From positions 13,750-56,041 of the forward strand of contig JAUNGM010000027.1 in NCBI GenBank assembly GCA_030524545.1: a stretch of DNA of 42,292 bases, given 5' to 3'. Each line of letters starts with the position of its first letter. Position 1 is the stretch's first letter. The DNA comes from Eubacteriales bacterium. GTDB lineage: Bacteria; Bacillota; Clostridia; Lachnospirales; Lachnospiraceae. A program made the translations under genes and the position numbers. Of this stretch, positions 921-26,967 are shown in pieces. The notes under the pieces are model-generated. The model saw only the letters and a program-made list of their open reading frames with translations. It was not told where the DNA came from and made no database searches.

Positions 921-1355
921 TTAAATATAATACATATCCTGCTCATAACCGCTGCGGGTCAGATAATCTTCCTTCAGATCTTTCAGTGTAAGATTCTGCA
1001 TGATGTCATCCAACTGCTGATTAATCCGGTCGATCAGAAGGGTCTGGATCGCGTCGGAGATGTTCTTTTCTTTTCCGTCGTCTGTTTCCAACTGGTAGCT
1101 TCCTTCCAGAGCAAGCAGAATCTCGGAAACGGTGATAGATTCCGGAGGTTCCTTCAGCAGATATCCGCCCTGAGGGCCTTTGACACTCTTTACGATCCCG
1201 GCTCTTCTAAGACTTGCAAATACCTGCTCCAGGTACTGCGGAGAAATCTCATTTCTCTCCGCAATGCTGTTCAAAGAAACGTGACCGTTCGCCGAATAAA
1301 CTGCCAGATCTATCAATGCTCTCAGACCATACCTGCTTTTTTTCGAAAACTTCAT
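921..1355 (-). CDS. cymR: Rrf2-family transcriptional regulator, CymR-like
   Basis: This 144-residue protein starts MKFSKKSRYGLRALIDLA, the standard Rrf2 opening. A winged helix-turn-helix follows (about residues 24-66, VSLNSIAERNEISPQYLEQVFASLRRAGIVKS, then GPQGGYLL wing). It contains no cysteine, so it cannot hold the Fe-S cluster of IscR/NsrR-type members. That points to the CymR branch, which represses cysteine and sulfur uptake genes and in Bacillus acts in a complex with CysK. The gene lies 11 bp behind cysK; its ribosome site GGAGG directly follows the cysK stop, so the two are co-transcribed. I infer that it controls the two palindrome-bearing promoters at 2387-2403 and 15903-15917. 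The exact effector cannot be read from the sequence. Confidence 0.85.
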   Translation of the reverse strand: MKFSKKSRYGLRALIDLAVYSANGHVSLNSIAERNEISPQYLEQVFASLRRAGIVKSVKGPQGGYLLKEPPESITVSEILLALEGSYQLETDDGKEKNISDAIQTLLIDRINQQLDDIMQNLTLKDLKEDYLTRSGYEQDMYYI

Positions 1356-1366
1356 ATATCCTCCGT

Positions 1367-2299
1367 TTACTCTGCAAATAACGGAGTGGAGTAATACCTG
1401 TCTCCGGTATCCGGGAGAAGCGCTACAATTGTTTTTCCTTTATTTTCCGGACGTTTTGCAAGCGCAATGGCTCCATGAAGGGCTGCACCGGAGGAGATTC
1501 CCACAAGAACGCCTTCCTTCTTAGCCAGTAACTTACCTGCTGCAAAAGCATCGTCATTCTCAATCTTAATGATCTCATCATAGATCCTGGTATTCAGTAC
1601 ATCCGGCACAAAGCCTGCGCCGATACCCTGGATCTTATGAGGGCCGCCTTTTCCTTCGGAAAGTACCGGAGAGCCGGCAGGCTCGATTGCGACTACCTTC
1701 ACATCCGGATTCTGGGATTTCAAATACTCGCCTGTACCTGTCAGAGTTCCGCCTGTACCAACACCTGCAACAAAAATATCAACCTTACCGTCCGTATCAT
1801 TCCAGATCTCCGGTCCTGTGGTTGCTCTGTGGATAGCCGGATTTGCCGGATTTACAAACTGTCCCGGGATAAAGCTGTCAGGGATTTCTGCTGCCAGCTC
1901 TTCTGCCTTGGCAATGGCACCCTTCATTCCCTTGGAGCCTTCTGTCAGAACAAGTTCCGCACCATATGCTTTCAGAATGTTTCTTCTTTCCACGCTCATG
2001 GTTTCCGGCATGGTCAGGATAATACGGTAACCCTTGGATGCTGCAATCGATGCAAGGCCGATTCCCGTATTTCCGGAAGTAGGCTCAATGATTACGGAAC
2101 CTTCTTTCAGAATGCCTTTCTCCTCTGCATCCTCGATCATCGCTTTGGCGATTCTGTCCTTGACACTTCCTGCGGGATTAAAGTACTCTAATTTCACAAG
2201 GATGGTAGCTTCCAGTCCAAGATCCTTCTCTACATTTGTCACCTCTACAAGCGGTGTGTTTCCAATCAGTCCTAATGTTCCTTTATAAATTCTGCTCAT
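1367..2299 (-). CDS. cysK: Cysteine synthase A (O-acetylserine sulfhydrylase)
   Basis: A PLP-dependent fold-type II enzyme of 310 residues that makes cysteine from O-acetylserine and sulfide in the cytosol. The PLP lysine is K47 in NPAGSVKDR. The TSGNTG phosphate/substrate loop lies near residues 73-78, and the GTGGTLTG phosphate-binding loop follows. Length is normal for CysK. The start at 2299 is preceded by GGGAGG seven bases upstream. It has its own promoter (2370-2398), separate from the upstream sulfate operon, and is co-transcribed with the CymR-like gene. In Bacillus, CysK also serves as co-regulator of CymR, and the gene order here suggests the same pairing. No serine acetyltransferase gene (cysE) is present in the window. 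Confidence 0.96.
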
Positions 2300-2369
2300 G
2301 ATAAATCCTCCCTTTTTCGATTTTTCTAACCCTATATTTCATACGTGATTAATATGTTTTATTAATTGT

Positions 2370-2403: not shown

Positions 2404-2429
2404 TTTTTTATTTTTTTATAAACACATTT

Positions 2430-3662
2430 TTAATCCTCCGATGCCCTGATTGCTGCAATGAAATCCTCTTCTAAATCCGCCCCATTCTCAATCCCGACAC
2501 TGACGCGGATGGAGTCGTCATACACACCGGCTGCTGCCTGCTGTGCCGGGGTACTGTGAATATAAATGGTCGAAGCCGGATGGATTACCAGTGTGCGGAC
2601 ATCTCCGATATTCGTAGCTTTACAGGCATATTTCAGTCCGTTGATGATCTTATACGCCCGTTCCCTGCTTCCGGCCCGGATGGTCAGGATTCCGCCCCCA
2701 AGCCCTCTGCACTGCCTCTCTGTCAGCTCTCTGTACGGATTGTGGGGAAGAAGCGGATAATTCACCGAGATGCCCGCCAGGGAATCAAGCGCCAAAGCCA
2801 GCCTTTTTGCATTTTCGCAGATCCGCTCCATGCGAAGCCCCATCGTTTCCATGCCGATAATATTCAGAAAACCGTTCATCGGCGCAAGGCAGCCGCCCAT
2901 ATTTCTCCAGATGCCGTTGCGCAGCTTGGCAAGATAAGCAAATTTCCCGAATTTCTTATATTTTTCAAAGCCCTGATACCGTTCCGGATTCCACCGAAAT
3001 CTGCCGCTGTCGATGATCAGACCGCTGATGGAGTTTCCGCCGCCGTTGATGTATTTGGATGCGGAATGGATGACAATATCCGCCCCCAGATCCAGAGGTC
3101 TTACCAAATACGGGGTAGCCGTCGTGTTATCTGCAATAAACGGGACTCCTCTTTCATGGAGAAAATCCGCAACCCTTTGAATATCCACCACATCCAGTCC
3201 CGGATTCCCGATGACCTCCCCGAATACGGCTTTTGTCCTGTCCGTAATCAGAGGTTCAATTTCCTCTACGGTAATATGCCCGGCAAATCTGGTCGTGATG
3301 CCGAACTTCTCCAGATCGCCAAAAAGATCGATCGTTCCGCCGAACAATCCGCTTCCGGCAATCACCTCATCTCCGGCTCCCAGAATATTCAAAAGTGCCA
3401 GTGTGATGGCAGACATGCCGGAGGAACAGGCCACTGCACCGATCCCGTTTTCCAACTCGCAGACTCTTCGTTCAAAATCGTCCACCACCGGATTGGAGAT
3501 CCTGCTGTAGGAAAAACCCGGCGCCCTGTTTTGAAATACTTTTTCCAGTTCTTCTGCAGTTTCATAGGTGAACGCGCTCACCTGGCTGATTGGCGGCACA
3601 GTTGCTCCATAGGGATATTTTCTGACTTCTTTTCCATGTAATAATTTTGTATTAAATTCCAT
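2430..3662 (-). CDS. metY: O-acetylhomoserine sulfhydrylase (MetY-type, PLP)
   Basis: A 410-residue Cys/Met-metabolism PLP enzyme. The PLP lysine is K203 in HSASKYINGGGN; ADNTTATPYLVRPL and CSSGMSAI are family landmarks. The enzyme replaces the acetyl group of O-acetylhomoserine by a sulfur nucleophile to give homocysteine. It is the last gene of the sulfate operon, directly after genes for a JAMM protease, an E1-like enzyme and a ThiS-like carrier. By analogy with Wolinella MetY it probably takes sulfur from the HcyS thiocarboxylate rather than free sulfide. A methionine gamma-lyase role is possible for the superfamily but fits the neighbourhood less well. The ribosome site upstream of ATG 3662 is modest (AAGGCGGTG). 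Confidence 0.88.
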   Translation of the reverse strand: MEFNTKLLHGKEVRKYPYGATVPPISQVSAFTYETAEELEKVFQNRAPGFSYSRISNPVVDDFERRVCELENGIGAVACSSGMSAITLALLNILGAGDEVIAGSGLFGGTIDLFGDLEKFGITTRFAGHITVEEIEPLITDRTKAVFGEVIGNPGLDVVDIQRVADFLHERGVPFIADNTTATPYLVRPLDLGADIVIHSASKYINGGGNSISGLIIDSGRFRWNPERYQGFEKYKKFGKFAYLAKLRNGIWRNMGGCLAPMNGFLNIIGMETMGLRMERICENAKRLALALDSLAGISVNYPLLPHNPYRELTERQCRGLGGGILTIRAGSRERAYKIINGLKYACKATNIGDVRTLVIHPASTIYIHSTPAQQAAAGVYDDSIRVSVGIENGADLEEDFIAAIRASED

Positions 3663-3688: not shown

Positions 3689-4108
3689 TTATTCAATCTC
3701 TGTGTAAACAATCGCCTCTTTGAAAACCTGATTGCCTTCAATGATAAAAGCGTTTAATACCGGGTTCCCGGGTTCCATGAGAGATAGGATCAGATACCGG
3801 ATATTTTTATCATAAGCCAGACGTTTATCTTCCTCTGAAGGACGCGACGGTGATTCCGGATGCGAATGAAAATTCCCGATAAGCTTCCATCCGTTTTTTC
3901 TTATATCCTTCACTGCAGCAAGCTGTTCTTTGGGATCCATGGAAAAATGCTCCCTGCTCTGATCCAGATTCTGCAGGTAATACACTTTTTCCACATGTTT
4001 TTCTTCCCCTTCGATCGTACCGCCTAAAAGCCCGCATACCTCATTCGGCAGACCTCTTTTGGCATAATCCACGATTTCGTCAAAATCTTTTTTTCTAATA
4101 TAGATCAT
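3689..4108 (-). CDS. hcyD: JAMM/MPN metalloprotease acting on the sulfur carrier (HcyD-like)
   Basis: A 139-residue single-domain MPN(+) protein. The zinc site is complete: E23 (LPNEVCGLLGG), H81 and H83 in FHSHP, S91 and D94 (HxH-x7-S-x2-D). Such small bacterial JAMM proteins include Mec, which cuts cysteine off CysO, and HcyD of Wolinella, which trims the carrier C-terminus and later releases homocysteine. The gene sits between hcyF and metY in one operon. The neighbouring carrier ends GGGAC, past the usual Gly-Gly, so a trimming protease is needed. Function is therefore assigned by family plus context. Confidence 0.88.
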   Translation of the reverse strand: MIYIRKKDFDEIVDYAKRGLPNEVCGLLGGTIEGEEKHVEKVYYLQNLDQSREHFSMDPKEQLAAVKDIRKNGWKLIGNFHSHPESPSRPSEEDKRLAYDKNIRYLILSLMEPGNPVLNAFIIEGNQVFKEAIVYTEIE

Positions 4109-4175
4109 ATCCCTATCCTCTGCTTTCGGAAATATTTCACATCATTACGCTTTTCTGCCGGTCTGTGGAAACACT

Positions 4176-4982
4176 TTAAATTCCCTCACATACGGTCTGC
4201 TCATAGTCGATCAGCTCCGTGATCGTCGGATGCTCTCCGCATACCGGGCAGGAGGACGTCTTTTTCGGAAGGGTAATGGTATGGAATTCCATTTTCAGCG
4301 CATCATAGGTCAGCAGCTTTCCTACCAGAAGGTTCCCGATCCCCAGAAGGTATTTCAGTGCCTCCATGGCCTGAAGGCTTCCGATCACACCGCCCATGGC
4401 CCCGATCACACCTGCCTGTTTGCAGGTAGGCACCGCATCCTTTGGCGGCGGAGACTTAAATACACAGCGGTAACACGGTCCCTGCCCCGGGACATACGTC
4501 ATAAGCTGTCCCTTAAACCGGATGATTCCCGCATGGGAAAACGGCTTTTTCTCCATCACACAGGCATCGTTGATCAGAAACTTGGCCGGAAAGTTATCGG
4601 TTCCGTCAATGACAAAATCATAGTCCCGGATCAACTCCCGGATATTATCTGCCTGCACAAATTTCCGGTAGGTATGTACCACTACATCCGGATTCATCGC
4701 TTCCATGGTTTCCTTTGCAGACTTTACCTTGGCCTTTCCCACATCCTCCGTGCTGTGGATGATCTGTCTCTGAAGATTTGAAAGATCTACTTCATCCGCA
4801 TCTGCGATCCCAATGGTGCCGACGCCTGCCGCTGCCAGATACATGGCTGCCGGCGCTCCAAGCCCTCCTGCACCGATAATCAGGACCTTACTGTTCAGAA
4901 GCTTTTTCTGTCCCTTCACTCCTACTTCTTTCAGGATGATATGTCTGGAATAACGTTCCAGTTGTTCATTGGTAAAAGCCAT
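4176..4982 (-). CDS. hcyF: E1-like adenylyltransferase for the sulfur carrier (HcyF/ThiF/MoeB family)
   Basis: A 268-residue ThiF/MoeB/HesA-type enzyme. It has the GAGGLG nucleotide loop at 37-42, the DADEVDLSNLQRQ motif near 61-73 and a zinc site of C170, C173, C245 and C248. A candidate acceptor cysteine is C187 in VPTCKQAGVIG. It would adenylate the C-terminal glycine of HcyS so that sulfide can form a thiocarboxylate. I place the start at 4982, not 4988, because GGAGGTG lies about eight bases upstream and the ATG overlaps the hcyS stop as TAATG. That overlap implies translational coupling to its carrier substrate. A thiamine or molybdopterin role is less likely, as no thi or moa genes are nearby. 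Confidence 0.9.
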   Translation of the reverse strand: MAFTNEQLERYSRHIILKEVGVKGQKKLLNSKVLIIGAGGLGAPAAMYLAAAGVGTIGIADADEVDLSNLQRQIIHSTEDVGKAKVKSAKETMEAMNPDVVVHTYRKFVQADNIRELIRDYDFVIDGTDNFPAKFLINDACVMEKKPFSHAGIIRFKGQLMTYVPGQGPCYRCVFKSPPPKDAVPTCKQAGVIGAMGGVIGSLQAMEALKYLLGIGNLLVGKLLTYDALKMEFHTITLPKKTSSCPVCGEHPTITELIDYEQTVCEGI

Positions 4983-5191
4983 TAGCATGCACCTCCGCCC
5001 ATGAAATAAATAAATTCAACGGAATCTCCTTCTTTCAATTTCGTATCCGCAAATTCATCTCTGTCCACAAAATCATCATTCAGGGACACCGTCACATATT
5101 CCGGTGTCTCTACCTTTTCCAGTTCAATTAATTTCTCAATATTGATTCCATCCTGAAACTCTTTCTTTTCTCCTGCTACTGTCAAAAACAT
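4982..5191 (-). CDS. hcyS: ThiS/MoaD-like sulfur carrier protein with C-terminal extension (HcyS-like)
   Basis: A 69-residue beta-grasp carrier. The start at 5191 is chosen because AGGAG lies seven bases upstream; the longer reading from 5221 would overlap the thioredoxin gene and has no such site. Family features are the short core ending KLKEGDSVEFIYFMGGG. Mature ThiS/MoaD proteins end in Gly-Gly, whereas this one continues with Ala-Cys. That means it must be processed before adenylation, as described for HcyS-Ala of Wolinella, and the neighbouring JAMM protease is the obvious candidate. The GGAGGT codons for the glycines also serve as ribosome site for hcyF. Confidence 0.9.
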   Translation of the reverse strand: MFLTVAGEKKEFQDGINIEKLIELEKVETPEYVTVSLNDDFVDRDEFADTKLKEGDSVEFIYFMGGGAC

Positions 5192-5201
5192 GGCTTTTCT
5201 C

Positions 5202-5531
5202 CTATTCCGCCCTTCCGGCATATTTTTCGATTACTTTTTCCAGCTTATCCCGGGGTACGATTCCCTTCAGCCGTTCATCTTCTTTTCCATTCCGGAAAAA
5301 CAGGACCGTCGGATAGACCTCTACCCCGTATTCATCTTTCAGCTCTTCAGAAAAAGCCGCATTGACCTTGACAATCTTTATTCTGGATTCATATGCATCT
5401 TCCATTTCCCCAAGCACCGGGGAAAACTGCTTGCATCCGAGGCAGCCGTCCGAATAAAATTCTACCAGCACCGGTTCTTCTGCCTCCAGCACCTCTTTTG
5501 TGAAACTCTGTTTATTGACTCTCTTTGCCAT
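5202..5531 (-). CDS. Thioredoxin-family protein with CLGC active site
   Basis: A 109-residue thioredoxin fold protein without signal peptide, so cytosolic. The redox site is C30-L-G-C33 (YSDGCLGCKQFSP) instead of the usual CGPC; the cis-proline segment VEVYPTVLFF is present. It lies between the sulfite reductase and the sulfur carrier genes, with the hcyS start 10 bp past its stop. Plausible jobs are electron supply to APS or sulfite reduction, or keeping carrier or enzyme cysteines reduced; the sequence does not decide between these. Confidence 0.88.
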   Translation of the reverse strand: MAKRVNKQSFTKEVLEAEEPVLVEFYSDGCLGCKQFSPVLGEMEDAYESRIKIVKVNAAFSEELKDEYGVEVYPTVLFFRNGKEDERLKGIVPRDKLEKVIEKYAGRAE

Positions 5532-5585
5532 GATTTCTCCTTCTCTGCATAGCTACGGGCCGCACATCAAAACCGGCCGTCTCTT

Positions 5586-6488
5586 TTACTTCCTGCTTTC
5601 CTGTGTTTCTGCGCCTCCCTGTACTTCTGCTCCCTCATAAGCTGCCGTGATCACCTTTTTAAACTGATCCCAGCCGACTCTGTCCAGAGTAAATTTAAAG
5701 CGTTCTCCCGGCTTTGCATGGTCATCAAAAAATTGTATTGCAGCATCTGTCACACGATAAAGCTGCTCCTCCGTTTTGATCAAAGGAAGAAGCGTATCTC
5801 CCTGATAGATCGTATTTCCAAACAGGCCGCCGAAGGATACCAGATATGCGCTTTCTCCTTCCCATGCATCAAACGGGCAGGACTTTACGCAGCGTCCGCA
5901 GTAATTACATTTGGAAAAATCTGCTTCCAGCTTTCCGTCCTTGATTTCAATCGCCTGTGAGCGGCACGCCTTTTCACAGACGCCGCAGAGCGTACATTTT
6001 TCCTCATTCCAATGCACATACAGTGCTCCTTTAACACCAAGATCGTTCTCCTCTGCTTTCAGGCAGTTGTTCTGGCATCCTGTCACGCCGAACTTAAATT
6101 TGTGCGGCAGCTCTCTGGCATAATACCGTTTATCAAGCTCCTTTGCGATCCGGTATGTATCAATATTCCCGCTTGGACAGACACCGTTTCCCTGACAGGC
6201 CGTCACCGTCCGCACTCTCGGTCCGCACACGCCCGGCTTGCAGCCGCCCTTTGCCAGTTCTTCCTTCACGGTTTCAATATCCTCATATTTTACGAAGGGG
6301 ATCTCTACTCCCTGCCTGGAAGTCAGATGGACATATCCCTGTCCGAATCTGTCCGCTACTTCCTGAATAATCCGCAGGTTTTCTGCGGTAAGAGTCCCTC
6401 CTACCACCTGAAGCCGAAGGGAGAAATATCCCTTCTGCTTCTGCCGCATAAAGCCGCCTTTCTTTAAACCAGAATAATCAATTGCCAT
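5586..6488 (-). CDS. Siroheme-type sulfite reductase with ferredoxin domain
   Basis: A 300-residue protein. An N-terminal nitrite/sulfite reductase half-domain (about 15-75) is followed by the siroheme/4Fe-4S ligand pattern C98-x5-C104-x33-C138-x3-C142 (ACQGNGVC and GCQNNC). Inserted after it are two 4Fe-4S motifs: C165, C168, C171, C175 and C194, C197, C200, C204, the latter continuing CP. It should reduce sulfite to sulfide with electrons from ferredoxin or the adjacent thioredoxin. It resembles the small, single-subunit reductases related to AsrC/Dsr rather than the large CysI. Position after CysN and before the carrier genes makes it the sulfide source for HcyS. A nitrite-reducing role cannot be excluded from sequence alone. 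Confidence 0.88.
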   Translation of the reverse strand: MAIDYSGLKKGGFMRQKQKGYFSLRLQVVGGTLTAENLRIIQEVADRFGQGYVHLTSRQGVEIPFVKYEDIETVKEELAKGGCKPGVCGPRVRTVTACQGNGVCPSGNIDTYRIAKELDKRYYARELPHKFKFGVTGCQNNCLKAEENDLGVKGALYVHWNEEKCTLCGVCEKACRSQAIEIKDGKLEADFSKCNYCGRCVKSCPFDAWEGESAYLVSFGGLFGNTIYQGDTLLPLIKTEEQLYRVTDAAIQFFDDHAKPGERFKFTLDRVGWDQFKKVITAAYEGAEVQGGAETQESRK

Positions 6489-6540
6489 CGTATTTCTTCT
6501 CCTTCCTCATTACACAATGTTAAAATGGATATATGTCCAT

Positions 6541-8187
6541 TTATATATAATCTCCCTCCAGAGAAATATAACTGCTGAAAGATGATATCTTTTTAATAAA
6601 CTCTACGATTCCGTCTACGGAATCTCCTGCCTCCTCCTGCCAGTCATAATAATAGAAATCCTCTTTTCGAAGAAGCGTCTTCTGTGCTTTCTCGTCCTTC
6701 AGAAGCAGCAGCACGAGGATTCCCGCATTGTTGAGATGCCGCACTGTTTTTTCGTAATCCTCTCCATCCTCCGGTTCATAAAGGTAGGTATGGCGTCCGA
6801 GCGTCCCCAACTGCTTTTCTGCTTTTTGTACAAGCTCTTTTGTAAGGCCGTCCTTTTCTGCGATAAATTCAACCGTCACAGGGGTCTGCCCTTTCAGGGC
6901 CGCACGCAGTTCCCTGACAGTAGTTCCCTGACTCTGTTCTTTTGTAAGTTCCCTCACTTCTTCAATGACGCCGCATGCGGATGTCATGTTTGTCACACGG
7001 TCAATCAGAAGCAGCTCTCCCAGGGTCTTATGATGACGAAACTCGTCTGCAATGATCCTGTCGGAAAATTTCAGCCTGCACACCGCGATCTCATTCTTTG
7101 TCAACGTCTGTGCAGCTTTCTTTTCTCCGCTGTTTACATCAATGGAATACAGGATTTCCGTCATTTCACCGGGGATCATTCTGGTTCCTACTTTGACAAA
7201 GAAATCCTTCCCCTTTTCCAGAGGAATATCATCCATCCAGAGAATCGATGCAGTCACATCCTCCGTGATCTTCGCACCGGACTCTTTCGACAACACACAT
7301 CCTCTGGAAACATCTACTTCCCTGTCAAGCTGAATGGTCACAGGCTGGCCCATAAACGCTTCTTCCGCCTGTCTGTCACCCACATAAATACTCTTTACGT
7401 GTGCCTGCTCTTTGCTTGGAAGGGCGGTGAGCAGATCTCCCACCTGCACGGAACCCGCCTCGATCTGTCCCTGGAATCCGCGGAACTCGTGATTCGGACG
7501 GCAGACTCTCTGTACCGGCAGATAGAAACCTTCTTCCTGTTCCGTATCCGTAACCTTCACCTGCTCCAGATACGGCAGAAGCACCTCTCCCTGATACCAC
7601 GGCATATGGCCGGATCTTTTTGTTACATTATCCCCTTCCGTAGCCGATACCGGAATGGTAGTGACATCCGCAAGAGCCAATTCCTCCGAAAGCTCCCGGA
7701 TCTGTTCCGAAATTTCCCGGAATCTTGCTTCGCTGTAATCCACCAGATCCATTTTATTTACCGCAAATACAAAGTGGCGGATTCCCATCAATGCGCAGAT
7801 CCTTGCATGGCGCCTGGTCTGGATAAGCACGCCCTGCTTCGCATCGATCAGGATCACTGCAAGATCCGCAAAGGAAGCACCTACAGCCATGTTTCTGGTA
7901 TACTCCTCATGCCCCGGCGTATCAGCCACAATAAAGCTTCTGTGATCTGTGGTAAAATAGCGGTATGCCACATCAATGGTAATTCCCTGCTCCCGCTCTG
8001 CCATCAATCCGTCCAGAAGAAGGGAATAATCAATTTTTCCTTCTCTGCTTCCTACACGGGAGTCCAGCTCCAGAGCCTTTTCCTGGTCTGCATAAAGCAG
8101 CTTGGCGTCATACAGAATATGTCCGATCAGGGTGGACTTACCGTCATCCACGCTGCCGCATGTAATAAATTTCAATAATCCTTCCAT
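6541..8187 (-). CDS. cysN: Sulfate adenylyltransferase GTPase subunit with a degenerate APS-kinase-like tail
   Basis: The start is set at 8187 (GGGAGGG 11 bases upstream, one base after the cysD stop), giving 548 residues. Residues 1 to about 430 are the usual CysN: G1 loop GSVDDGKST, DTPGHEEYT, NKMDLVD, then EF-Tu-like barrels. It hydrolyses GTP to drive APS formation by CysD. The last 116 residues are extra. The stretch TKELVQKAEKQLGTLGRHTY, followed by NNAGILVL, resembles APS kinase (CysC). The GxxGxGKS P-loop is replaced by FIAEKDGLTKE, and the domain is shorter than a real kinase. It is therefore probably a non-catalytic remnant. Confidence 0.93.
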   Translation of the reverse strand: MEGLLKFITCGSVDDGKSTLIGHILYDAKLLYADQEKALELDSRVGSREGKIDYSLLLDGLMAEREQGITIDVAYRYFTTDHRSFIVADTPGHEEYTRNMAVGASFADLAVILIDAKQGVLIQTRRHARICALMGIRHFVFAVNKMDLVDYSEARFREISEQIRELSEELALADVTTIPVSATEGDNVTKRSGHMPWYQGEVLLPYLEQVKVTDTEQEEGFYLPVQRVCRPNHEFRGFQGQIEAGSVQVGDLLTALPSKEQAHVKSIYVGDRQAEEAFMGQPVTIQLDREVDVSRGCVLSKESGAKITEDVTASILWMDDIPLEKGKDFFVKVGTRMIPGEMTEILYSIDVNSGEKKAAQTLTKNEIAVCRLKFSDRIIADEFRHHKTLGELLLIDRVTNMTSACGVIEEVRELTKEQSQGTTVRELRAALKGQTPVTVEFIAEKDGLTKELVQKAEKQLGTLGRHTYLYEPEDGEDYEKTVRHLNNAGILVLLLLKDEKAQKTLLRKEDFYYYDWQEEAGDSVDGIVEFIKKISSFSSYISLEGDYI

Positions 8188-8188
8188 C

Positions 8189-9142
8189 TTAGAAATAGCC
8201 CTCCCTTTTTCTTCTTTCCATGCTGCCTGCCGCTTCATGGTCAATCACACGGCTGGTACGCTCCGAGGATACGGCGCTTAACGTCTCTTCTATGATTGCA
8301 TCCAATGTATCTGCCCCGGACTCCACGCCTCCGGTGAGAGGATAACAGCCAAGCGTGCGGAATCTGACTTTCTTATACTCTACCTTTTCGCCCTCTTTTA
8401 ATTTCAGCCTGTCGTCGTCCACCATGATAATGTTGCCGTCCCGGAAGATTACCGGCCGTTCCTTTGCAAAATAAAGGGGTACGATATCAATGTTTTCTCT
8501 GCGGATATACTGCCAGATATCCTTTTCCGTCCAGTTCGAGATTGGAAATACGCGGATGCTTTCCCCTTTCTGAATCTTTGTATTATAGAGCTTCCACATC
8601 TCCGGCCTCTGGTTCTTCGGATCCCATGCCTGGGCTGCGTTTCTGAAAGAAAAAATCCTCTCTTTTGCCCTGGATTTTTCCTCGTCTCTCCGTCCTCCGC
8701 CGAAGGCCGCCGTAAACTGGTATTTGCTCAAAGCCTGCTTCAAAGCCTGGGTCTTCATAATATCCGTGTAGGCGGAGCCATGGTCAAAGGGATTGATCCC
8801 TGCTTTGACTCCTTCCTCATTGGTATAGGAAAGCATTCTAATTCCATATTTTTCTGCAGTTTTATCACGGAACTCAATCATTTCATGAAATTTCCAGGTG
8901 GTGTCGATATGCAGAAACGGAAACGGCGGTTTTTCCGGATAAAATGCCTTCAGAGCCAGATGCAGCATCACGGAACTGTCTTTCCCTATGGAATAAAGCA
9001 TTACCGGGTTTTCACATTCCGCAGCAACCTCACGGATGATATAAATCGCTTCCGCTTCCAGTGCATCAAGGTGCGTCGTATTATCAGGTATACCTCTATC
9101 GGCGCAGCCAGTGCGCCCGGAATTATGTAATAAATCTCCCAT
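8189..9142 (-). CDS. cysD: Sulfate adenylyltransferase catalytic subunit
   Basis: A 317-residue PP-loop ATP pyrophosphatase of the CysD/PAPS reductase superfamily. The PP-loop is [40 protein letters not shown] and [12 protein letters not shown] are CysD landmarks. It joins ATP and sulfate to APS with CysN. The start at 9142 has GGGAGG seven bases upstream; the upstream-extended reading from 9229 has a low-quality N-terminus. Followed directly by cysN. The long [10 protein letters not shown] segment and [12 protein letters not shown] distinguish it from a PAPS reductase. Confidence 0.95.
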
Positions 9143-9240
9143 TTCAAATCCTCCCTGTTTTCCTGTCTTCTTTCCAATTGCTGTATTGTCACAGCCAAAT
9201 CTCCTCAAACGGCTTTCTGCCGCTTCCATATAGAGATGCT

Positions 9241-9555
9241 TCAGTATTTATTTGAATCTTTTTTATTAATTCGGATCGTTTCCACATTTCCGAATGCATC
9301 TTCCACTCTCCAGGTGCTGATATCACCTTTTTCGGAAACCGTAAGCACGCTTCCTCTGCCCCCGATATCCGCTCCCAGATAAAACAAAATGGCGTTTACC
9401 GGACATTCCTTCACACAGGAGGTGCAGCCCCAGCAGTCCCGGATATGACGGATCTCTGCCTTTCCGTCCACTCCCTTTTTGATCAGGTTTCCCGGACAGG
9501 CTTCCGTGCATTGTCCGCACCCGATACATTTATCCTTCTGAATCCGTATGCTCAT
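9241..9555 (-). CDS. aprB: APS reductase beta subunit, short ferredoxin form
   Basis: A 104-residue ferredoxin with two 4Fe-4S sites: C10, C13, C16, C20P and C41, C44, C47, C51P, the arrangement of AprB ([15 protein letters not shown] and [13 protein letters not shown]). The start at 9555 is backed by GGAGGG seven bases upstream; it overlaps the last 26 bases of aprA. AprB of sulfate reducers is near 150 residues and has a C-terminal tail wrapping AprA. That tail is largely absent here, as in assimilatory-type clusters. It passes electrons to the AprA flavin for APS reduction. Confidence 0.9.
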
Positions 9556-11323
9556 GACAAATCCCTCCGTTCTTAAGATTCCGGTAAATGATCTGAATCT
9601 CTCCGTCAACCATTCTCGAATTTACAAATTTCCGCCACTTTTCGGATTTTTCGGGATAATCCGTATTCTCGCCGAAGCTGTGCCATCTCGTTTCCTTTCT
9701 GGCTGCCAGATGAGCAATGACTGCCTGGCAGACGATCAGGCGCTCCCGCACCTCATAGATCCGAAGGAGGTCATCCATATCCCCGGCATGAAGCTTATAA
9801 AGAAGCGGCATAAGCTCCCGGATCTTCTTTGCGGCAATAGCCAGACGTTCTTCATTGTACCTGTAGTCCGTATGGATGCCGCCTGCATATTCGTCCATAA
9901 TCTTCTGCATGGCTTCCTCAAGCTGTTCTGCCGAAAAGCCGCTTTCTTCCCCGGCCAGGAATGCTTCATATTCTGCCTTTTTCTCCTGTGCATCGTTTGG
10001 AATCCCGGGTTCTGTCCCGTCTGCTGACGGTCCCCGGTCTTTGTATTCCCTGTCGTTCTGTTCCTTTTCTCGCTGCTCCCGGCCGTTTTGTTCCCGGTCT
10101 TCGCTCTCTGCATCCTCCTGCGCGAGGTATCGCAGCACCGCTTCCGCAGCGATCTCCCCTTCCGCCAGGGCGCCTGTCACATATTTCTGCGGACATCCGC
10201 CCGCCACATCACCTGCTGCAAAAAGTCCCGGAACCGTCGTACTTCTGTCCGCATTTACCCAATAGCCGCTGGCCGTATGGCCGCCCACAATGTACGGCTC
10301 CGTTCCCTCAATCTCCACATTTTCTTCCACCGGTCCCTTTCCGCATTCCAGCCACCGAAGGGTCTGGCTCGGCGCCATATTCAGATATGCTTTGTACAAA
10401 TCCTGTTCCTGTTCTTTGGATATCCCCGTTGTCCGGAGATAACAGGGGCCTCTCCCCGCACGATTCTCCATGACTGTCCCGTACACTCTCCCGGAAGTTG
10501 TCAGCCCGTATTTTGTTTCGTAAATCTCTCCCCGGGCATTTACCTGTTTCGCACCGACGCCCTGTGCGATCGTTCCCGTAGGTGCGATTGTATCCTTACA
10601 CCGCAGTGCAATGAAACGCATCTCAAATGTAGTCATTTCTGCTCCGGCAAGAATTCCCATGGCATATCCTGCTCCCGTATTAAAAGGAGGATACCACATC
10701 TTATGCCTGGAAAAGCCGGGATTATTTGGACGGTAAAGTCCCGCTGCTCCTCCGGCAGCACAAATCACCGCTTTTGCATGAATTTCATAAAAAACAGGCT
10801 TATTTACGTCAAAACCATATGCTCCTCTTACTACCGTCCGGCCATGCTCCTCCACCAGCCTGTAATCCGTAATATTTACATGATTCAGCACTGTTACATT
10901 GTCCTGGCGTGCGGTTTCCTCCGCAAGCAAAGGCTTCATATTCTCCCCGTTGATCTTGATATTCCGGTTTCCTCTTGCAACATACCGGCCCTTCTCATCT
11001 TTCAGAATGACCAGTCCAAACTCCTCCATCTTCTTTGTCACATGATTCAGCCTCCGGGACATAGTGAGAAGAAGATCCTCTCTCACGATTCCCGCCGCAT
11101 CCTTTTTGGCGTACTCCACATAGTCCTCGGGTTTCCTGCCTTCCGTTATGTAAGCATTGAGTGCATTTACCCCTGCTGCCAGACAGCCGCTTCTTTTGAT
11201 ATTTGCCTTCTCTGCGACCACAATGCGCTTATCCTTTGCAGCGCCTAACGTAATCGCGGCAAAACAGCCTGCCGTACCGCCGCCGATGATCAGTACATCC
11301 GTTTCTATTTGCCTTGTCTCCAT
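9530..11323 (-). CDS. aprA: APS reductase alpha subunit (flavoprotein) with charged insert
   Basis: A 597-residue FAD protein of the fumarate reductase/AprA family that reduces APS to sulfite and AMP. The FAD loop is IIGGGTAGCFAA (13-24). AprA-like stretches are NALNAYITEGRKPEDYVEYA, AAGGAAGLYRPNNPG and WYPPFNTGAGYAM, and the second FAD motif is VPGLFAAGDVAGG. The direct neighbours cysDN and aprB support APS reductase over fumarate or aspartate oxidase. Residues 402-447 form a highly charged, repetitive E/R/Q/D-rich stretch that looks like an insert between the FAD domain and the helical C-terminal domain. The start at 11323 has AAGGGGG upstream. Confidence 0.9.
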   Translation of the reverse strand: METRQIETDVLIIGGGTAGCFAAITLGAAKDKRIVVAEKANIKRSGCLAAGVNALNAYITEGRKPEDYVEYAKKDAAGIVREDLLLTMSRRLNHVTKKMEEFGLVILKDEKGRYVARGNRNIKINGENMKPLLAEETARQDNVTVLNHVNITDYRLVEEHGRTVVRGAYGFDVNKPVFYEIHAKAVICAAGGAAGLYRPNNPGFSRHKMWYPPFNTGAGYAMGILAGAEMTTFEMRFIALRCKDTIAPTGTIAQGVGAKQVNARGEIYETKYGLTTSGRVYGTVMENRAGRGPCYLRTTGISKEQEQDLYKAYLNMAPSQTLRWLECGKGPVEENVEIEGTEPYIVGGHTASGYWVNADRSTTVPGLFAAGDVAGGCPQKYVTGALAEGEIAAEAVLRYLAQEDAESEDREQNGREQREKEQNDREYKDRGPSADGTEPGIPNDAQEKKAEYEAFLAGEESGFSAEQLEEAMQKIMDEYAGGIHTDYRYNEERLAIAAKKIRELMPLLYKLHAGDMDDLLRIYEVRERLIVCQAVIAHLAARKETRWHSFGENTDYPEKSEKWRKFVNSRMVDGEIQIIYRNLKNGGICHEHTDSEG

Positions 11324-11382
11324 ACGGCTTCCCCCTTTCTCCGTAAATCGTTCATGGTGACCCTGTCTATGACTCCTCTTTT

Positions 11383-12441
11383 TTAAATTACAAGAGAATC
11401 TTCCTTTAAGGAGTTATTCTCCACCAGATATGCCTGATCGCCCCGTGTCAGAAGCATTCTGTAAAGGAATACGTCCACGGTCTCTCCGGCCTGTACGGGT
11501 CTTTCATCCAGCCCCCTCTTAGCAGTAAGGACTGCTTCTCCTACACGGACACGAAGCTCAATGGCATCACCGCGGAAAGCCACCCGTTCCACTACTCCCT
11601 GCGAAGCGGAGCTTTTATACTTCTGCACCTCATCCAGTTTTGTGATTTTTATAAATTCCGGACGGATAATTGCCTTTTCCCCTTTCAGCGGTTCCTCAAA
11701 GCTTCTGAATATCCGGTAATTTTCCACAACCGACGGCTGCCCGAAAAAGGCTGCGGTAAAAGCGGTTTCCGGACTTTGGTAGATTTCCAGAGGCGTTCCC
11801 TTCTGCTCGATTTTTCCCTGATTGGTAATGATGATCTCATCCGCCACTTCAATGGCCTCTTCCTGGTCATGAGTTACAAAGATACTGGTAATCCCCAGCT
11901 TCTCGATCATCTCCTTCAGCCAGCTCCTCAACTCCTTGCGGACCTTGGCATCAATCGCCGCAAACGGTTCATCCAGAAGCAGAAGCTGCGGATTAGGTGC
12001 CAGCGCCCTGGCAAATGCCACCCTCTGCCGCTGTCCTCCGGACAACTGGCTGGGATACCGTTTTTCCAGGCCGGTAAGCCCAATCAGATCAACCAGCTCT
12101 GTCACTCTTTTTTTGATCCTGCTCTTCTCTTCCTTTTGTACTTCCAGGCCAAAAGCAATATTTTCATAAACGGTCATATACCGGAACAATGCATAGTTCT
12201 GGAACACAAAACCGATTCCCCGCTTACTTGCAGGAATGTCATTGACCACCTTCCCGTCAATCACGATCTCGCCGCTGTCCGGCGTTTCCAGTCCTGCGAT
12301 CATTCGAAGAATCGTTGTCTTTCCGCTTCCGCTCGGCCCGAGAAGACCGATCAGTTTTCCCTTTTCAATACCGAAGCTCACATGATCCGAAGCTTTATAG
12401 CTTCCAAATGTCTTATTAATATCTTTCAATTCTACGTACAT
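11383..12441 (-). CDS. cysA: Sulfate ABC transporter ATP-binding protein
   Basis: The start at 12441 (MYVELKDINKTF) is preferred because GGAGG lies five bases upstream; the longer start at 12495 has none. The 352-residue protein has Walker A GPSGSGKTT, Q-loop FVFQNYALF, signature LSGGQRQR, Walker B LLLLDEPFA and the H-loop VTHD. A C-terminal regulatory TOBE-like domain runs from about 235 (EKAIIRPEFIKI...). It powers CysTW for sulfate or thiosulfate import. The cysW-cysA spacing is 69 bp from 12511 to this start. Confidence 0.93.
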   Translation of the reverse strand: MYVELKDINKTFGSYKASDHVSFGIEKGKLIGLLGPSGSGKTTILRMIAGLETPDSGEIVIDGKVVNDIPASKRGIGFVFQNYALFRYMTVYENIAFGLEVQKEEKSRIKKRVTELVDLIGLTGLEKRYPSQLSGGQRQRVAFARALAPNPQLLLLDEPFAAIDAKVRKELRSWLKEMIEKLGITSIFVTHDQEEAIEVADEIIITNQGKIEQKGTPLEIYQSPETAFTAAFFGQPSVVENYRIFRSFEEPLKGEKAIIRPEFIKITKLDEVQKYKSSASQGVVERVAFRGDAIELRVRVGEAVLTAKRGLDERPVQAGETVDVFLYRMLLTRGDQAYLVENNSLKEDSLVI

Positions 12442-12510
12442 GTCTTCCTCCATTCCGTCTTTGCCCTGACTTTTCTGTTTTTCCTGCTCCTGCATCCGTA
12501 AACTGCAGCT

Positions 12511-13332
12511 CTAAATTTCTTTTTTCCCGAGATACTCCACAATACTTCGCAGAATCAGAATGATCACTGCCATGAGGACCAGAATGGACGATACCGCAAA
12601 GGCAGGCACATACTGAAATTCATTAAACAGGATTTCAATATGCAGAGGCAGGGTATTCGTCTTTCCTCTCAAATGGCCGGACAATACGGAAACCGCTCCG
12701 AACTCTCCCATTGCTCTTGCCGTACAAAGTACCACGCCGTATAAAAATGCCCACTTAATATGAGGAAAAGTTACTTTCCGGAAAATCGTCAGCCCGTTTG
12801 CTCCCATCAATGCCGCCGCTTCCTCCTCATCCGTCCCCTGTGCCTCCAGAACAGGAATCAATTCCCTGGAAACAAACGGAAATGTCACAAAGATCGTAGC
12901 CAGAACAATTCCGGGAACTGCAAAAACGATCTTGATATCCCATGCTTTCAGCAGCGGATACAGCGGGCTCTGTTTTCCAAATGTCAGTATGTAGATCAAG
13001 CCGGCAATGATCGGGGAAACCGTAACCGGAATATCAATCAGTGTCGTCAGCACCTTTTTTCCTTTAAAGTGATATCTGGTCAGTGCCCATGCGGCAAACA
13101 GCCCGAAAACACTGTTGCAGAGCAGCGCCAGAACCGTCGCCTCCACAGTGAGCCAAAAAGCTTTGACCGTATATTCATCCAAAATAGCCTCTTTATAAAA
13201 TTCCCATCCCTTACGCAGCGCCTCCGTGATCACCGTGATCAGCGGAACAACCAGCATAATGACCAGAAAAAGGACGCTGATGCCGATCAGAAGCCACTTA
13301 AAAGGGCCTGAATCTTCTCTTCTTTTTTCCAT
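12511..13332 (-). CDS. cysW: Sulfate ABC transporter permease
   Basis: A 273-residue membrane protein with about six hydrophobic helices. The EAA loop reads ELIPVLEAQGTDEEEAAALMGANGLTIFRKVTFP, typical of CysW/CysT. The ATG overlaps the cysT stop as TAATG, and AAAGGAGG lies nine bases upstream, so the two permeases are translationally coupled and form the membrane channel. It lies directly ahead of cysA. Confidence 0.93.
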   Translation of the reverse strand: MEKRREDSGPFKWLLIGISVLFLVIMLVVPLITVITEALRKGWEFYKEAILDEYTVKAFWLTVEATVLALLCNSVFGLFAAWALTRYHFKGKKVLTTLIDIPVTVSPIIAGLIYILTFGKQSPLYPLLKAWDIKIVFAVPGIVLATIFVTFPFVSRELIPVLEAQGTDEEEAAALMGANGLTIFRKVTFPHIKWAFLYGVVLCTARAMGEFGAVSVLSGHLRGKTNTLPLHIEILFNEFQYVPAFAVSSILVLMAVIILILRSIVEYLGKKEI

Positions 13333-14168
13333 TATGCATTGCCTCCTTTCAGCAAACGGTTGTTTCTTGCCTGCACAAAATTGATCAAAAACAGGATTAA
13401 AAAGGATGCCGCCAACATCACAAGCGCGATGGCAGAAGCGCTGGCATAATCATATTCCTGAAGCTCGGACATAATCATCAACGGTGCGATTTCCGTATAA
13501 TACGGTTTATTACCTGCGATAAACACGACGCTTCCGTATTCTCCGATACATCTCCCGAACGCCAGCCCCGTACCTGTCAGCAAAGCAGGAAACAGTTCCG
13601 GAAAGATGACTCTCCGAAAAATCGTTGCCGGAGATGCCCCAAGTACCATAGCCGCCTCTTCATAAGCACCGTCCAGTTTTTCCAATACCGGCTGCACTGC
13701 ACGGACCACAAAGGGTATTCCAATAAAAACCAGGGCAACTGTGATACCGATCCTGGTATAAGCGATCTTTATTCCGAATCTTGCAAAAAAAGCGCCGATA
13801 AATCCGCTGTCCGCAGTCAGGGAGGTGAGCGCAATGCCGGCAACGGCCGTAGGCAGTGCGAACGGAAGCTCGATCATGCCGTCCATGATTCTCTTACCCG
13901 GAAATTCATACCGTACAAGCACCCATGCCAGGATAAGTCCCATCACCGCATTGATTGCCGAAGCAACCAATGCAGTGATAAAGCTCACATAAAAGCTGGA
14001 AAGCACTCTCGCCCTTGTAACCGTCTCAATAAAATCCTTCCAGCCAAGCTCCGCCGTAAAGACAGCCAGCGAAGCCAATGGGATCAACACTACAACACTC
14101 AGTATGGCAACCGTTACTCCCATGGAAATACCAAAACCGGGAATCACTCTCTTTTTTGCCTTTTTCAT
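13332..14168 (-). CDS. cysT: Sulfate ABC transporter permease
   Basis: A 278-residue, six-helix permease; the EAA loop is VVRAVQPVLEKLDGAYEEAAMVLGASPATIFRRVIFP, followed by the family's FGRCIGEYGSVVFIAGN segment. It partners CysW. The gene begins 15 bp after the sulfate-binding protein stop. CysT (CysU) and CysW are told apart by order and similarity; sulfate versus thiosulfate specificity is not decided by sequence. Confidence 0.92.
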   Translation of the reverse strand: MKKAKKRVIPGFGISMGVTVAILSVVVLIPLASLAVFTAELGWKDFIETVTRARVLSSFYVSFITALVASAINAVMGLILAWVLVRYEFPGKRIMDGMIELPFALPTAVAGIALTSLTADSGFIGAFFARFGIKIAYTRIGITVALVFIGIPFVVRAVQPVLEKLDGAYEEAAMVLGASPATIFRRVIFPELFPALLTGTGLAFGRCIGEYGSVVFIAGNKPYYTEIAPLMIMSELQEYDYASASAIALVMLAASFLILFLINFVQARNNRLLKGGNA

Positions 14169-14183
14169 ACAACTACCTGCTTT

Positions 14184-15200
14184 CTATTTCTCGTAGATCT
14201 GATCAAAAACGCCTCCGTCAGCAAAATGGACTTCCTGCGCTTCATCCCATCCGCCGAAATCATCAATCGTTACAAGCTCCAGCTCAAGGTCAAAAACATC
14301 TGCATATTCCTTCAGAATCTCCTCATTGGACGGACGGTAGAAATTGTCCCCCTCAATTCTCTGTGCTTCATCAGAATACAGATAGTTCAGATATTCTGTC
14401 GCTACCTCTCTGGTGCCCCTGTCATCCACTACTTCATCTACCACTGCAACAGAAGGCTGTGCCAGGATACTGATGCTTGGAGTTATAATTTCATAATCAT
14501 CCGGATAATCCCTGATGGAAAGGAACGCTTCATTTTCCCATGCAAGAAGCACATCCCCCTGTCCGTTCTCTACAAAGGAAGTGGTGGCTCCTCTTGCGCC
14601 GGAATCCAGCACCAGCACATTTTCATACAGCTTTTGAATGTAGTCCTTTATTTTCTCCTCGTCTCCGTCAAATTCTTTGTCCGCGTATGCCCATGCAGCC
14701 AGATAGTTCCATCTTGCACCGCCGGAAGTTTTGGGATTCGGGGTAATAATCCCCACATCCTCTTTTACCAGATCCCCCCAGTCCTGAATATTCTTCGGAT
14801 TGCCCTTTCTTACAAGGAAAACGATCGTGGATGTATAGGGAGAGCTGTCCAGAGGGAATTCATCAACCCATCCGTCCTCAATAAGCCCCGCGTCCTGCAC
14901 CGCTTTCACGTCATATTCCAGTGCAAGCGTTACAACGTCTGCTTCCAGGCCGTTGGCAACCTCCAGTGCCTGTTTTCCGGAACCGCCGTGAGACTGTGTG
15001 ATCTCCACATCCTGGCCGGTTTCTTCCTTCCAATGCTCCTGAAAGATCTTATTGTACTGCTCATACAGCTCCCTTGTAGGATCATAAGAAACATTTGTGA
15101 TTTCCACCGTATCATCCGCCAGAACGGTTGCCGCTCCATTTACGGTTCCCAATGCAAGAACTGCTGCCAATCCCAAAGTAACTACTCTATTTTTTTTCAT
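14184..15200 (-). CDS. sbp: Sulfate/thiosulfate-binding protein
   Basis: A 338-residue periplasmic-type binding protein. The start at 15200 is fixed by AGGAGG nine bases upstream. A Sec signal peptide covers residues 1-28 and ends VLA|DD. Family landmarks are SYDPTRELYEQYN, SHGGSGKQALEV, NPKTSGGARWNYLAAWAYA and GQGDVLLAWENEA. No lipobox cysteine is present, which is unusual for a Gram-positive binding protein that needs anchoring near the membrane. The Shine-Dalgarno is contributed by a repeat element (15208-15256) that recurs twice elsewhere in the window. Confidence 0.94.
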   Translation of the reverse strand: MKKNRVVTLGLAAVLALGTVNGAATVLADDTVEITNVSYDPTRELYEQYNKIFQEHWKEETGQDVEITQSHGGSGKQALEVANGLEADVVTLALEYDVKAVQDAGLIEDGWVDEFPLDSSPYTSTIVFLVRKGNPKNIQDWGDLVKEDVGIITPNPKTSGGARWNYLAAWAYADKEFDGDEEKIKDYIQKLYENVLVLDSGARGATTSFVENGQGDVLLAWENEAFLSIRDYPDDYEIITPSISILAQPSVAVVDEVVDDRGTREVATEYLNYLYSDEAQRIEGDNFYRPSNEEILKEYADVFDLELELVTIDDFGGWDEAQEVHFADGGVFDQIYEK

Positions 15201-15300: not shown

Positions 15301-15546
15301 TCAGTCACCTGTTTTTCTCACAAGCAATTGATAGGTGCCGTCATCATTCTTCAGCAGCTTCAGCACCTGATGGCCTTCTTCCTTAATGCTTCTCGGCACA
15401 TTCTGTACCGGTTCCCCATCATTCAGTCTGATGGAAAGCACCTGCCCGTCATCCAGCTCCTCCAAAGCCACCTTTGCCTTTACAAAAGTAATCGGACACA
15501 CAACATCCGTAATGTCCACCACACCATCAACGTAAATTTCTGCCAT
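15301..15546 (-). CDS. TusA/SirA-like sulfur-handling protein
   Basis: An 81-residue TusA-fold protein starting MAEIYVDGVVDITDVVCPITFVKAKVALEEL. The Cys-Pro is at residues 17-18, but the usual CPxP is CPIT. The start at 15546 has GGAAGGAAG upstream. The protein may shuttle persulfide sulfur; as first gene of a sulfate operon it could deliver sulfur to HcyS or another acceptor. YedF-like roles are possible. A longer in-frame reading exists upstream (ATG 15687) that runs through the terminator; see the findings. Confidence 0.87.
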   Translation of the reverse strand: MAEIYVDGVVDITDVVCPITFVKAKVALEELDDGQVLSIRLNDGEPVQNVPRSIKEEGHQVLKLLKNDDGTYQLLVRKTGD

Positions 15547-15610
15547 CTTTCTTCCTTCCCTTCTCTTTCTCCTGTCCGGATACTTCTTTTTCTGTTTTTG
15601 TTCTCCGGCC

Positions 15611-15648
15611 AATAAAAAAGACGGAAGATATTTCTGTTCCCCCGTCTC
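15611..15648 (-). terminator. Leader terminator (attenuator) before the sulfate operon genes
   Basis: On the minus strand AGACGG (15647-15642) pairs with CCGTCT (15624-15619), with an extra AA:TT beside a GGG bulge, and is followed by TTTTTTATT. It lies between the leader peptide and the first structural gene, so it should end transcription unless an alternative fold forms. The upstream segment CGTCTC (15716-15711), inside the leader ORF, is complementary to GAGACG (15648-15643) and could act as antiterminator. Confidence 0.75.
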
Positions 15649-15686
15649 AAAAGCCGCAAAAAATCGTGCTTCCTGTGCAGACCGCA

Positions 15687-15806
15687 TTATATTCCGCACC
15701 TATCAGAAGAGAGACGACAAGAAACCTGAATATTCATAAAGCAACACATACACATGGACATATCCTTACACATCTTTTGCTCCATAAAATAACTTCTGTT
15801 TCTCAT
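15687..15806 (-). CDS. Cysteine- and methionine-rich leader peptide
   Basis: A 39-codon ORF read on the minus strand, with ATG at 15806, stop TAA at 15689-15687, and AGGAG about eight bases upstream. Residues include KMCKDMSMCMCC at positions 11-22; in total six Cys and seven Met among 39. It follows a consensus promoter by about 70 nt and precedes a terminator. The composition is that expected of a leader peptide that senses charged Cys-tRNA and Met-tRNA, controlling the sulfate and homocysteine genes below. The stop overlaps another ATG (TAATG). I do not know a described leader like it in Clostridia; the gene assignment is inferred. Confidence 0.75.
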   Translation of the reverse strand: MRNRSYFMEQKMCKDMSMCMCCFMNIQVSCRLSSDRCGI

Positions 15807-15884
15807 ACTTCCCTCTCCTCTCATTGTTTTATCATTCTTTTTTCCTATTAACCTATCTGTTTAATATGTTTATTTGATGATGCT

Positions 15885-15917
15885 ATTATATGCCGACTAT
15901 TCCTATTTGTCAACTAG
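15885..15917 (-). promoter_or_regulatory. Promoter of the sulfate operon with palindromic operator
   Basis: On the minus strand TTGACA (15913-15908) and TATAAT (15890-15885) are exactly 17 bp apart, a full consensus promoter. The 15-bp palindrome CTATTTGTCAACTAG (plus strand 15903-15917) covers the -35 box. The same core sits on the cysK promoter. A perfect promoter needs tight control, which fits repression by the CymR-like protein plus attenuation downstream. Confidence 0.85.
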
Positions 15918-16042
15918 ATTTTATATTTCTTTTCATTTTTTTGGTAATATAAATTGCCGAAGTAAACGCCTACCCATAACGCGAAATCTGTGATAGAATA
16001 AGAAAGGCAAGCTTTTACAAGAAGAAAGGCAGGTTCAGACCG

Positions 16043-26840: not shown

Positions 26841-26860
26841 TCAAAATAACAATTAAGAAA

Positions 26861-26935
26861 TCGCTGATGACTGGCGGAGCAGTGGAGTTTACCACAAGGG
26901 AATCAGCGGTTTGTTACAGCCGACCGTCTGGGCAG
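26861..26935 (+). promoter_or_regulatory. ZTP/ZMP riboswitch (pfl motif)
   Basis: Conserved pieces are in order: P1 GCTGAT (26863-26868) with ATCAGC (26902-26907), the GACTGGCGGA core (26869-26878), P2 GTGG/CCAC, AAGGGAA after P2, then GCCGACCGTCTGGGC (26919-26933). These are hallmarks of the pfl RNA, which binds the folate-stress alarmones ZMP/ZTP. The GGGC of P3 is also the first base block of the terminator stem, so ligand binding would favour P3 and read-through (an ON switch). It controls fhs, a known target class. Confidence 0.93.
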
Positions 26936-26967
26936 TATTTGATTTTATCAAATACTGCCCTTTTTTT
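26930..26967 (+). terminator. Riboswitch-controlled terminator before fhs
   Basis: A 13-bp perfect stem, GGGCAGTATTTGA (26930-26942) with TCAAATACTGCCC (26948-26960), a 5-nt loop and a run of seven U. Its 5' edge shares GGGC with the aptamer P3. Confidence 0.95.

Follow-up and report, generated by a model that had tools for sequence, protein, structure and literature searches.

The window (the whole stretch of 42,292 nucleotides of DNA from a gut Blautia species that we analyzed) contains a long run of genes for sulfate assimilation, which begins with tusA and is preceded by a short ORF rich in Cys and Met codons. The locus raises the question of whether translation of this ORF decides if the operon is transcribed. 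Based on sequence and calculation, we consider it quite probable that the leader works as a leader-peptide transcription attenuator of the tusA operon, in addition to probable CymR-like control of the promoter.

The tusA operon and its leader

All features of the operon and its leader lie on the minus strand. Genes were named from family matches, and cysW and aprB from their translations. The first structural gene is tusA (15301..15546; Pfam PF01206, 70.6 bits). It is followed, within 3689..15200, by sbp (ATG at 15200), cysT, cysW, cysA, aprA, aprB, cysD and cysN, and then by the sulfite reductase, thioredoxin, thiS-like, thiF and JAMM peptidase genes. The last of the run is a metY-like gene of the O-acetylhomoserine sulfhydrylase family (2430..3662; TIGR01326, 383 bits against a cut-off of 495), which starts 26 nt past the JAMM gene. 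Neighboring genes are at most 100 nt apart and some of them overlap. From tusA to metY the run provides for taking up sulfate, reducing it to sulfide and forming homocysteine. In line with the earlier observation that the amino acids encoded in the leader match the products of the operon, the genes fit Cys and Met supply. The ThiS/ThiF/JAMM/MetY group resembles the thiocarboxylate route to homocysteine.

Upstream of tusA, a TTGACA box (15913-15908) and a TATAAT box (15890-15885), separated by a 17-nt spacer, match the promoter consensus at 12 of 12 positions. The leader ORF (15687..15806) runs from an ATG at 15806 to a stop at 15689-15687 and has 39 codons plus the stop. It is preceded by the Shine-Dalgarno (SD) sequence AGGAG (15819-15815) and encodes the peptide MRNRSYFMEQKMCKDMSMCMCCFMNIQVSCRLSSDRCGI, with six Cys (four TGT and two TGC codons) and seven Met residues. 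An alternative in-frame ATG at 15824 would extend the ORF to 45 codons; no SD sequence was seen for it. Codons 11-22 (15741..15776) form the Cys/Met run KMCKDMSMCMCC. For the consensus promoter, the 39-codon ORF with its ribosome site and residue counts, and the position of the run, our results agree with the first-pass annotation.

None of 20,000 dinucleotide shuffles reached the 12 Cys and Met codons of the ORF body (start codon omitted), and none reached the observed eight within 12 codons; the Cys count alone was equalled in 187 of 20,000. The remaining two frames contain two and three stops and no Met, and one of them has four Cys. We also scanned 1.46 Mb of loci for intergenic, SD-led ORFs of 12-60 codons with an ATG start. 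At least three Cys in ten codons occur in 11 of the 138 distinct ORFs, and five of these 11 are leaders, the window leader among them.

Alternative RNA structures and the predicted switch

The leader ORF is followed by an intrinsic terminator (15614..15648) made up of an 11-pair hairpin (15648-15638 with 15628-15618) and a T run (15619-15614), in line with the stem and U-tract reported earlier. The terminator scanner overlooked this hairpin because its loop limit is 8 nt and the loop here has 9. Segment 2 (15711..15730), the 5' strand of the putative antiterminator, can form 16 pairs with segment 3 (15632..15648), its 3' strand: 15730-15728, 15725-15720 and 15717-15711 pair against 15648-15632. 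Segment 3 overlaps the 5' arm of the terminator (15648-15638). The complementarity between CGTCTC (15716-15711) and GAGACG (15648-15643) noticed in the first-pass annotation is correct, but the helix is longer. Segment 1 (15812..15821), which contains the SD sequence, pairs with 15705-15714 when the ribosome is absent (segment 1:2 pairing 0.75, equalled in 8 of 200 shuffles).

The fold of 15840-15590 stands out from shuffled sequences (z -3.98; 0 of 200 equally good), but that of 15740-15605 by itself is unremarkable (z -1.34; 18 of 200 equally good), a point against the attenuator. The probability of the antiterminator was calculated for the free RNA downstream of the ribosome (footprint +14), with the 3' arm of the terminator still untranscribed. 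Without a ribosome it is 7e-7, segment 2 then being held by the SD region. It amounts to 0.56-0.76 with the A-site at codons 11-21, falls to 0.48 at codon 22, 0.27 at codon 23, 0.15 at codon 24 and 0.06 at codon 25, and is 0.00 from codon 27. With footprints of +17 to +11, codon 21, 22 or 23 is the point at which the probability drops under one half; this point marks the end of the CMCC cluster in the leader. Two results count against the attenuator: the switch lacks a sharp edge (with a footprint of +12, the value at codon 24 is 0.49), and early stalls at codons 1-10 free segment 2 too (0.29-0.77). Folding with and without a stalled ribosome had been proposed as a check, and it favors the attenuator: a stall in the run is predicted to leave segment 2 free for the antiterminator, which is lost with a ribosome further along or with none.

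In the full-length fold the terminator prevails after every stall (0.63-0.97); therefore, antitermination would require kinetic commitment. For a stall at codon 21, the best antiterminated fold lies 1.7 kcal/mol above the terminated one. Among 500 shuffles compared with this stall, 8 reached the pairing, 7 reached the energy gap and none reached both, so that the earlier interpretation of stalling and antitermination gains support from calculation.

Sequence and calculation thus supply a promoter, a Cys/Met ORF with an SD sequence, a terminator and three RNA pairings that exclude one another. Like a classical attenuator, the leader has a short SD-led ORF between the promoter and the first structural gene, an excess of codons for the end products (Cys and Met), an intrinsic terminator ahead of tusA and, in silico, an antiterminator whose availability depends on ribosome position. 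With ample charged Cys-tRNA (and Met-tRNA), the ribosome would pass the run and cover segment 2; the terminator would then form and transcription would end before tusA. With scarce charged Cys-tRNA (or elongator Met-tRNA), the ribosome would stall at codons 12-22, segment 2 would capture segment 3 ahead of the synthesis of the terminator 3' arm, and the operon would be transcribed. If the leader were left untranslated, segment 1 would pair with segment 2 and the terminator would form by default. A CymR-like Rrf2 protein probably adjusts promoter strength as well. The attenuator would serve Cys chiefly. Cys is the firmer signal in this model, because Met shortage would starve initiation too; slowed initiation would favor termination, counter to the attenuator reading for Met. 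Of the scarcity of Cys or Met originally suggested as the signal, the Cys part is the safer.

Might the terminator be controlled without translation, by a T-box, an S-box or an unknown aptamer? The source genome does have such elements (14 T-box matches, nine of them above the cut-off, and one SAM riboswitch), located on other contigs. At the window leader, neither the T-box (RF00230) nor the SAM riboswitch (RF00162) model of Rfam gave a match, and a lax Rfam search of 15500-15960 returned one microRNA match (E 4.2) and nothing more, which makes an RNA element of this kind very improbable. The sole Rfam match at the gathering level in the window is a ZMP/ZTP riboswitch at 26857-26940 (67.6 bits).

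Probable promoter control and the neighboring cysK gene

A 130-nt gap with a promoter separates the metY-like gene from cysK (above the TIGR01139 cut-off) and an Rrf2-family regulator gene (together 921..2299). The regulator, downstream of cysK (921-1355), scores 117 bits with the CymR model NF047409 against a cut-off of 195. The direct Cys-forming gene, cysK, has its own promoter, and no leader was found upstream of it, which counts against the attenuator. This promoter (window positions 2300-2420) resembles that of tusA: the two regions align with a score of 83, the maximum among 300 shuffles being 59. The alignment points to putative operator elements of the Rrf2/CymR type, AATAGGAA (15907-15900) and ATAGGTTAATAGG (15856-15844), within 15844..15907. 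The shared promoter sequence and the Rrf2 gene beside cysK suggest that a CymR-like repressor acts on both promoters; as regards membership in a CymR regulon, the promoter sequence is shared and the Rrf2 protein falls below the CymR cut-off.

Such a repressor might even be the only control, the ORF and the terminator being incidental or lowering basal transcription. The adjoining Rrf2 gene, the promoter alignment far above shuffles and six named Blautia sbp loci without such a leader all fit this explanation. Yet it leaves unexplained the excess of Cys and Met codons, the ribosome-dependent alternative pairing and the fact that Cys/Met leaders turn up repeatedly ahead of related genes, and we regard promoter control alone as rather unlikely.

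Distribution of the window leader

When the window peptide was searched against 64 Blautia genomes, it found itself (E 5e-22), and all other matches had E-values of 0.007 or worse; those inspected looked unrelated. No counterpart was thus found in the 63 other genomes, and no comparable leader at the 57 other tusA loci of the genus and family. The comparison with related genomes proposed in the first-pass annotation found the exact leader in the source genome only. Since the leader occurs in one of 64 Blautia genomes and at one of 58 tusA loci, it offers no covariation, which counts against the attenuator. A same-strand gene, mostly for sulfite reductase or a JAMM protein, ends within about 200 nt ahead of tusA at each of the 57 other loci (56 identified by ORF, L008 by BLAST; none in the window). 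At L061 the upstream gene is unrelated and therefore tusA may begin its own unit there; L061 has no leader. Homologous operons that keep the terminator and lose the ORF had been named as evidence that would speak against attenuation. No such case was seen, which is a weak test, because the other tusA loci have a gene shortly upstream and there is no same-start operon among the 57 to compare.

The same searches bear on whether the product of the leader ORF is a small, Cys-rich protein that has a function of its own. Six Cys per 39 residues could bind metal. Against this stand the lack of an NCBIfam match, a single Pfam match at E 0.13, the absence of a convincing homologue among the 63 genomes and the overlap of the ORF with segment 2, which leave a separate protein function extremely improbable.

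Cys and Met/Cys leaders ahead of sbp

Cys or Met/Cys leaders, picked by eye, precede sbp at 34 of the 106 loci with a placed start, some of which are possibly one genome under two handles. The counted leaders are short and SD-led, contain Cys either close to the stop codon or clustered in a run, and end 24-186 nt upstream of sbp (32 measured). They include the sets ..LVRANFRFGRC, ..SAGGxxRC and ..HNWRNGRMC.., a leader with CCCCC (L188) and the Met/Cys-rich leaders L195 (MRENLNRKSMVYRKMCCRMCMAQR) and L122 (MRENRLLCKMRCRGEMCIGGCRIVS..), the two most like the window leader. A motif scan of 1.46 Mb built from the sbp leaders gave 31 rows, every one before sbp. The occurrence of Cys or Met/Cys leaders before other sulfate-transport genes and before metY (see below) further supports the stalling interpretation. 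No such leader was found at the six named Blautia sbp loci (L114, L134, L147, L148, L157 and L159).

Several other observations concern these loci. In L188 (about 4583-4724), the leader MKQLSKTSGTQEGCCCCCMF.. has five consecutive Cys codons and lies 186 nt ahead of sbp. Cys-containing TTG frames at L157 and L159 were judged not to be leaders. Sequestration of the sbp SD sequence, considered as a general mechanism, turned out not to be general among the 32 leaders tested (near copies L132 and L156 excluded): L146, L151 and L160 have an SD sequence that is buried after the leader stop and that a stall opens, in L125 and L188 it is buried and a stall does not open it, and a few other leaders show the effect in a milder form. 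No clear terminator was found in the 32 gaps between leader and sbp; L151 and L152 pass a simple test, neither convincingly. Promoters of some leader loci (e.g. L117, L119, L127 and L272) carry palindromes like CCTACC..GGTAGG, possibly an Rrf2 operator.

A leader scaffold with a CGA codon before Met or Cys

A profile built from nine sbp leaders was searched against 391 genomes of the class. Its matches showed this scaffold, here with Met as the final residue, ahead of metY-type genes and of genes for MetQ/NlpA-like lipoproteins (below the NCBIfam cut-offs; L225 exceeds that of Pfam). The conserved peptide R-x-N-x-R-x-G-R-(Met/Cys) is thus shared by leaders of metY, of metQ-like genes and of sbp. 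In the L225 lipoprotein the MetQ/NlpA match comes in two stretches, the best of which aligns the N-terminal half of the protein with the C-terminal half of the profile; this order hints at a possible circular permutation, and L269 looks alike by eye. A second profile found the scaffold in Blautia and Lachnospiraceae, the source genome included. There, the leader MNHLFQELLRENFRNGRMCCCR (GRMCCCR; loci L240/L251, G000:C4:42708-42770, minus strand) lies 118 nt upstream of a second metY, which passes TIGR01326. CCGGCAG occurs just past the stop of this leader and in a downstream hairpin arm, and therefore an alternative pairing is possible. At 23 scaffold-leader loci, again including the source genome, the downstream protein matches the window MetY.

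The Arg codon preceding Met or Cys is CGA in all 60 of 60 distinct scaffold leaders, an invariance to which shared descent contributes. Because the profile searches were made at the protein level, the CGA codon was not selected for. The leaders come from L221-L235, L240-L287 and the sbp loci L117-L160; the set omits exact duplicates, L231, L250, L281 (no start), profile matches below 19 bits, and sbp leaders lacking both Arg-Cys and the scaffold. CGA makes up 5.8% of 3,801 Arg codons in the long frames of the scaffold-leader loci and 18 of 176 at other Arg positions of the scaffold leaders; it is found in 7 of 10 further Arg-Cys leaders without the scaffold. The residue after CGA is Met in 37 leaders and Cys in one before metY, Met in three before metQ-like genes and Met in four with the gene unassigned. 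Before sbp it is Cys in nine and Met in six, the Met group being related and having Met then Cys.

A terminator stands 20-65 nt past the stop in four of the scaffold leaders. Two of them, L272 and L274, precede metY; L273 precedes a gene that looks nitrogenase-like by eye, and for L287 no gene was called. The L273 leader is of the Met type, and its nitrogenase-like protein may, as a lead, have a methionine-salvage role like methylthio-alkane reductases. In L272, L274 and L287, CTCCCG lies 5 nt past CGA-ATG and complements the 5' arm of the terminator, so that the predicted stall point falls within about one codon of the antiterminator edge. The pairing test is weak (14, 12, 37 and 142 of 200 shuffles equally good for L272, L273, L274 and L287). 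Once the A-site holds the Met codon (footprint +14), the terminator already prevails (0.81, 0.78, 0.86 and 0.99, respectively); these results do not demonstrate starvation-driven antitermination, and the response of these terminator-bearing leaders may have either sign. An Rfam search of ten leader loci gave no match.

The window leader was considered as a member of the scaffold family and rejected, since the scaffold searches (A1 and A3) match only the metY leader in the source genome; the window ORF has no in-frame CGA codon. This bears on whether the peptide acts through its sequence, by nascent-chain arrest or in some other way, in place of simple codon starvation. Related leaders keep R-x-N-x-R-x-G-R before Met/Cys, beyond the needs of codon counting, but the window leader is without the scaffold and its visible feature is the codon run; we consider an action through the peptide sequence distinctly unlikely.

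We see about even chances that Clostridia share a modular sensor for sulfur amino acids, a leader peptide that combines the fixed scaffold with an invariant rare CGA immediately preceding the Met or Cys codon. Swapping this codon would change which amino acid is sensed, with Met ahead of metY and metQ-like genes and frequently Cys ahead of sulfate-transport genes. Primed by the slow CGA and by the conserved nascent chain, the ribosome would need just one such codon. On this reading, the window leader would be a functional relative, a codon run with its own terminator gained in one Blautia lineage. Given the invariant CGA, one can test whether the sensitivity of such a one-codon sensor depends on a rare codon.

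Comparison with known systems

The trp, his and leu operons have ribosome-mediated transcription attenuators. In its predicted working the window leader is like these classical leader-peptide attenuators: trp, his, leu and ilv attenuators likewise combine a promoter, a leader ORF carrying codons of the amino acid that the operon makes and an alternative terminator and antiterminator. Unlike them, the window leader mixes Cys and Met codons, serves a sulfate-assimilation and homocysteine operon and is found in Clostridia. If the attenuator reading is true, leader-peptide attenuation in Firmicutes would extend to Cys and Met. The hosts are common gut bacteria whose sulfur control is usually ascribed to T-boxes, S-boxes and CymR; the earlier statement that Cys and Met control in Clostridia usually runs through T-boxes and S-boxes gives an incomplete picture. 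The literature searched, from which subscription journals are mostly missing, yielded no description of these leaders of Clostridia. Canestrari et al. reportedly described Cys-run leaders of actinobacterial cys operons in 2020.

The comparisons that follow refer to excerpts of the cited papers. Corynebacterium ilvB is a case of a ribosome-mediated attenuator (PMC11109978). In actinobacteria, leader ORFs with Cys codons likewise stand ahead of cys genes; unlike for the window leader, no conserved terminator was found there according to the excerpt (PMC1262725), and translation attenuation is cited for mycobacteria (PMC13236596). With uORFC-8-2, the predicted cysS leader of Rhodobacterales, the window leader shares tandem Cys codons, a 3' U run and predicted read-through at low charged Cys-tRNA; uORFC-8-2 controls cysteinyl-tRNA synthetase in Alphaproteobacteria, and Met codons go unmentioned in the excerpt (PMC8632094). 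The His leader peptides before hisS/hisZ in Bacilli are similar in that attenuation replaces a T-box in Firmicutes, and different in amino acid, genes and class (PMC2965389). Finally, in the Cys T-boxes and S-boxes of Clostridium, as excerpted, premature termination likewise answers Cys or SAM supply, but there the RNA itself senses tRNA or SAM, free of translation (PMC2940859), whereas in the window leader the ribosome would do the sensing.
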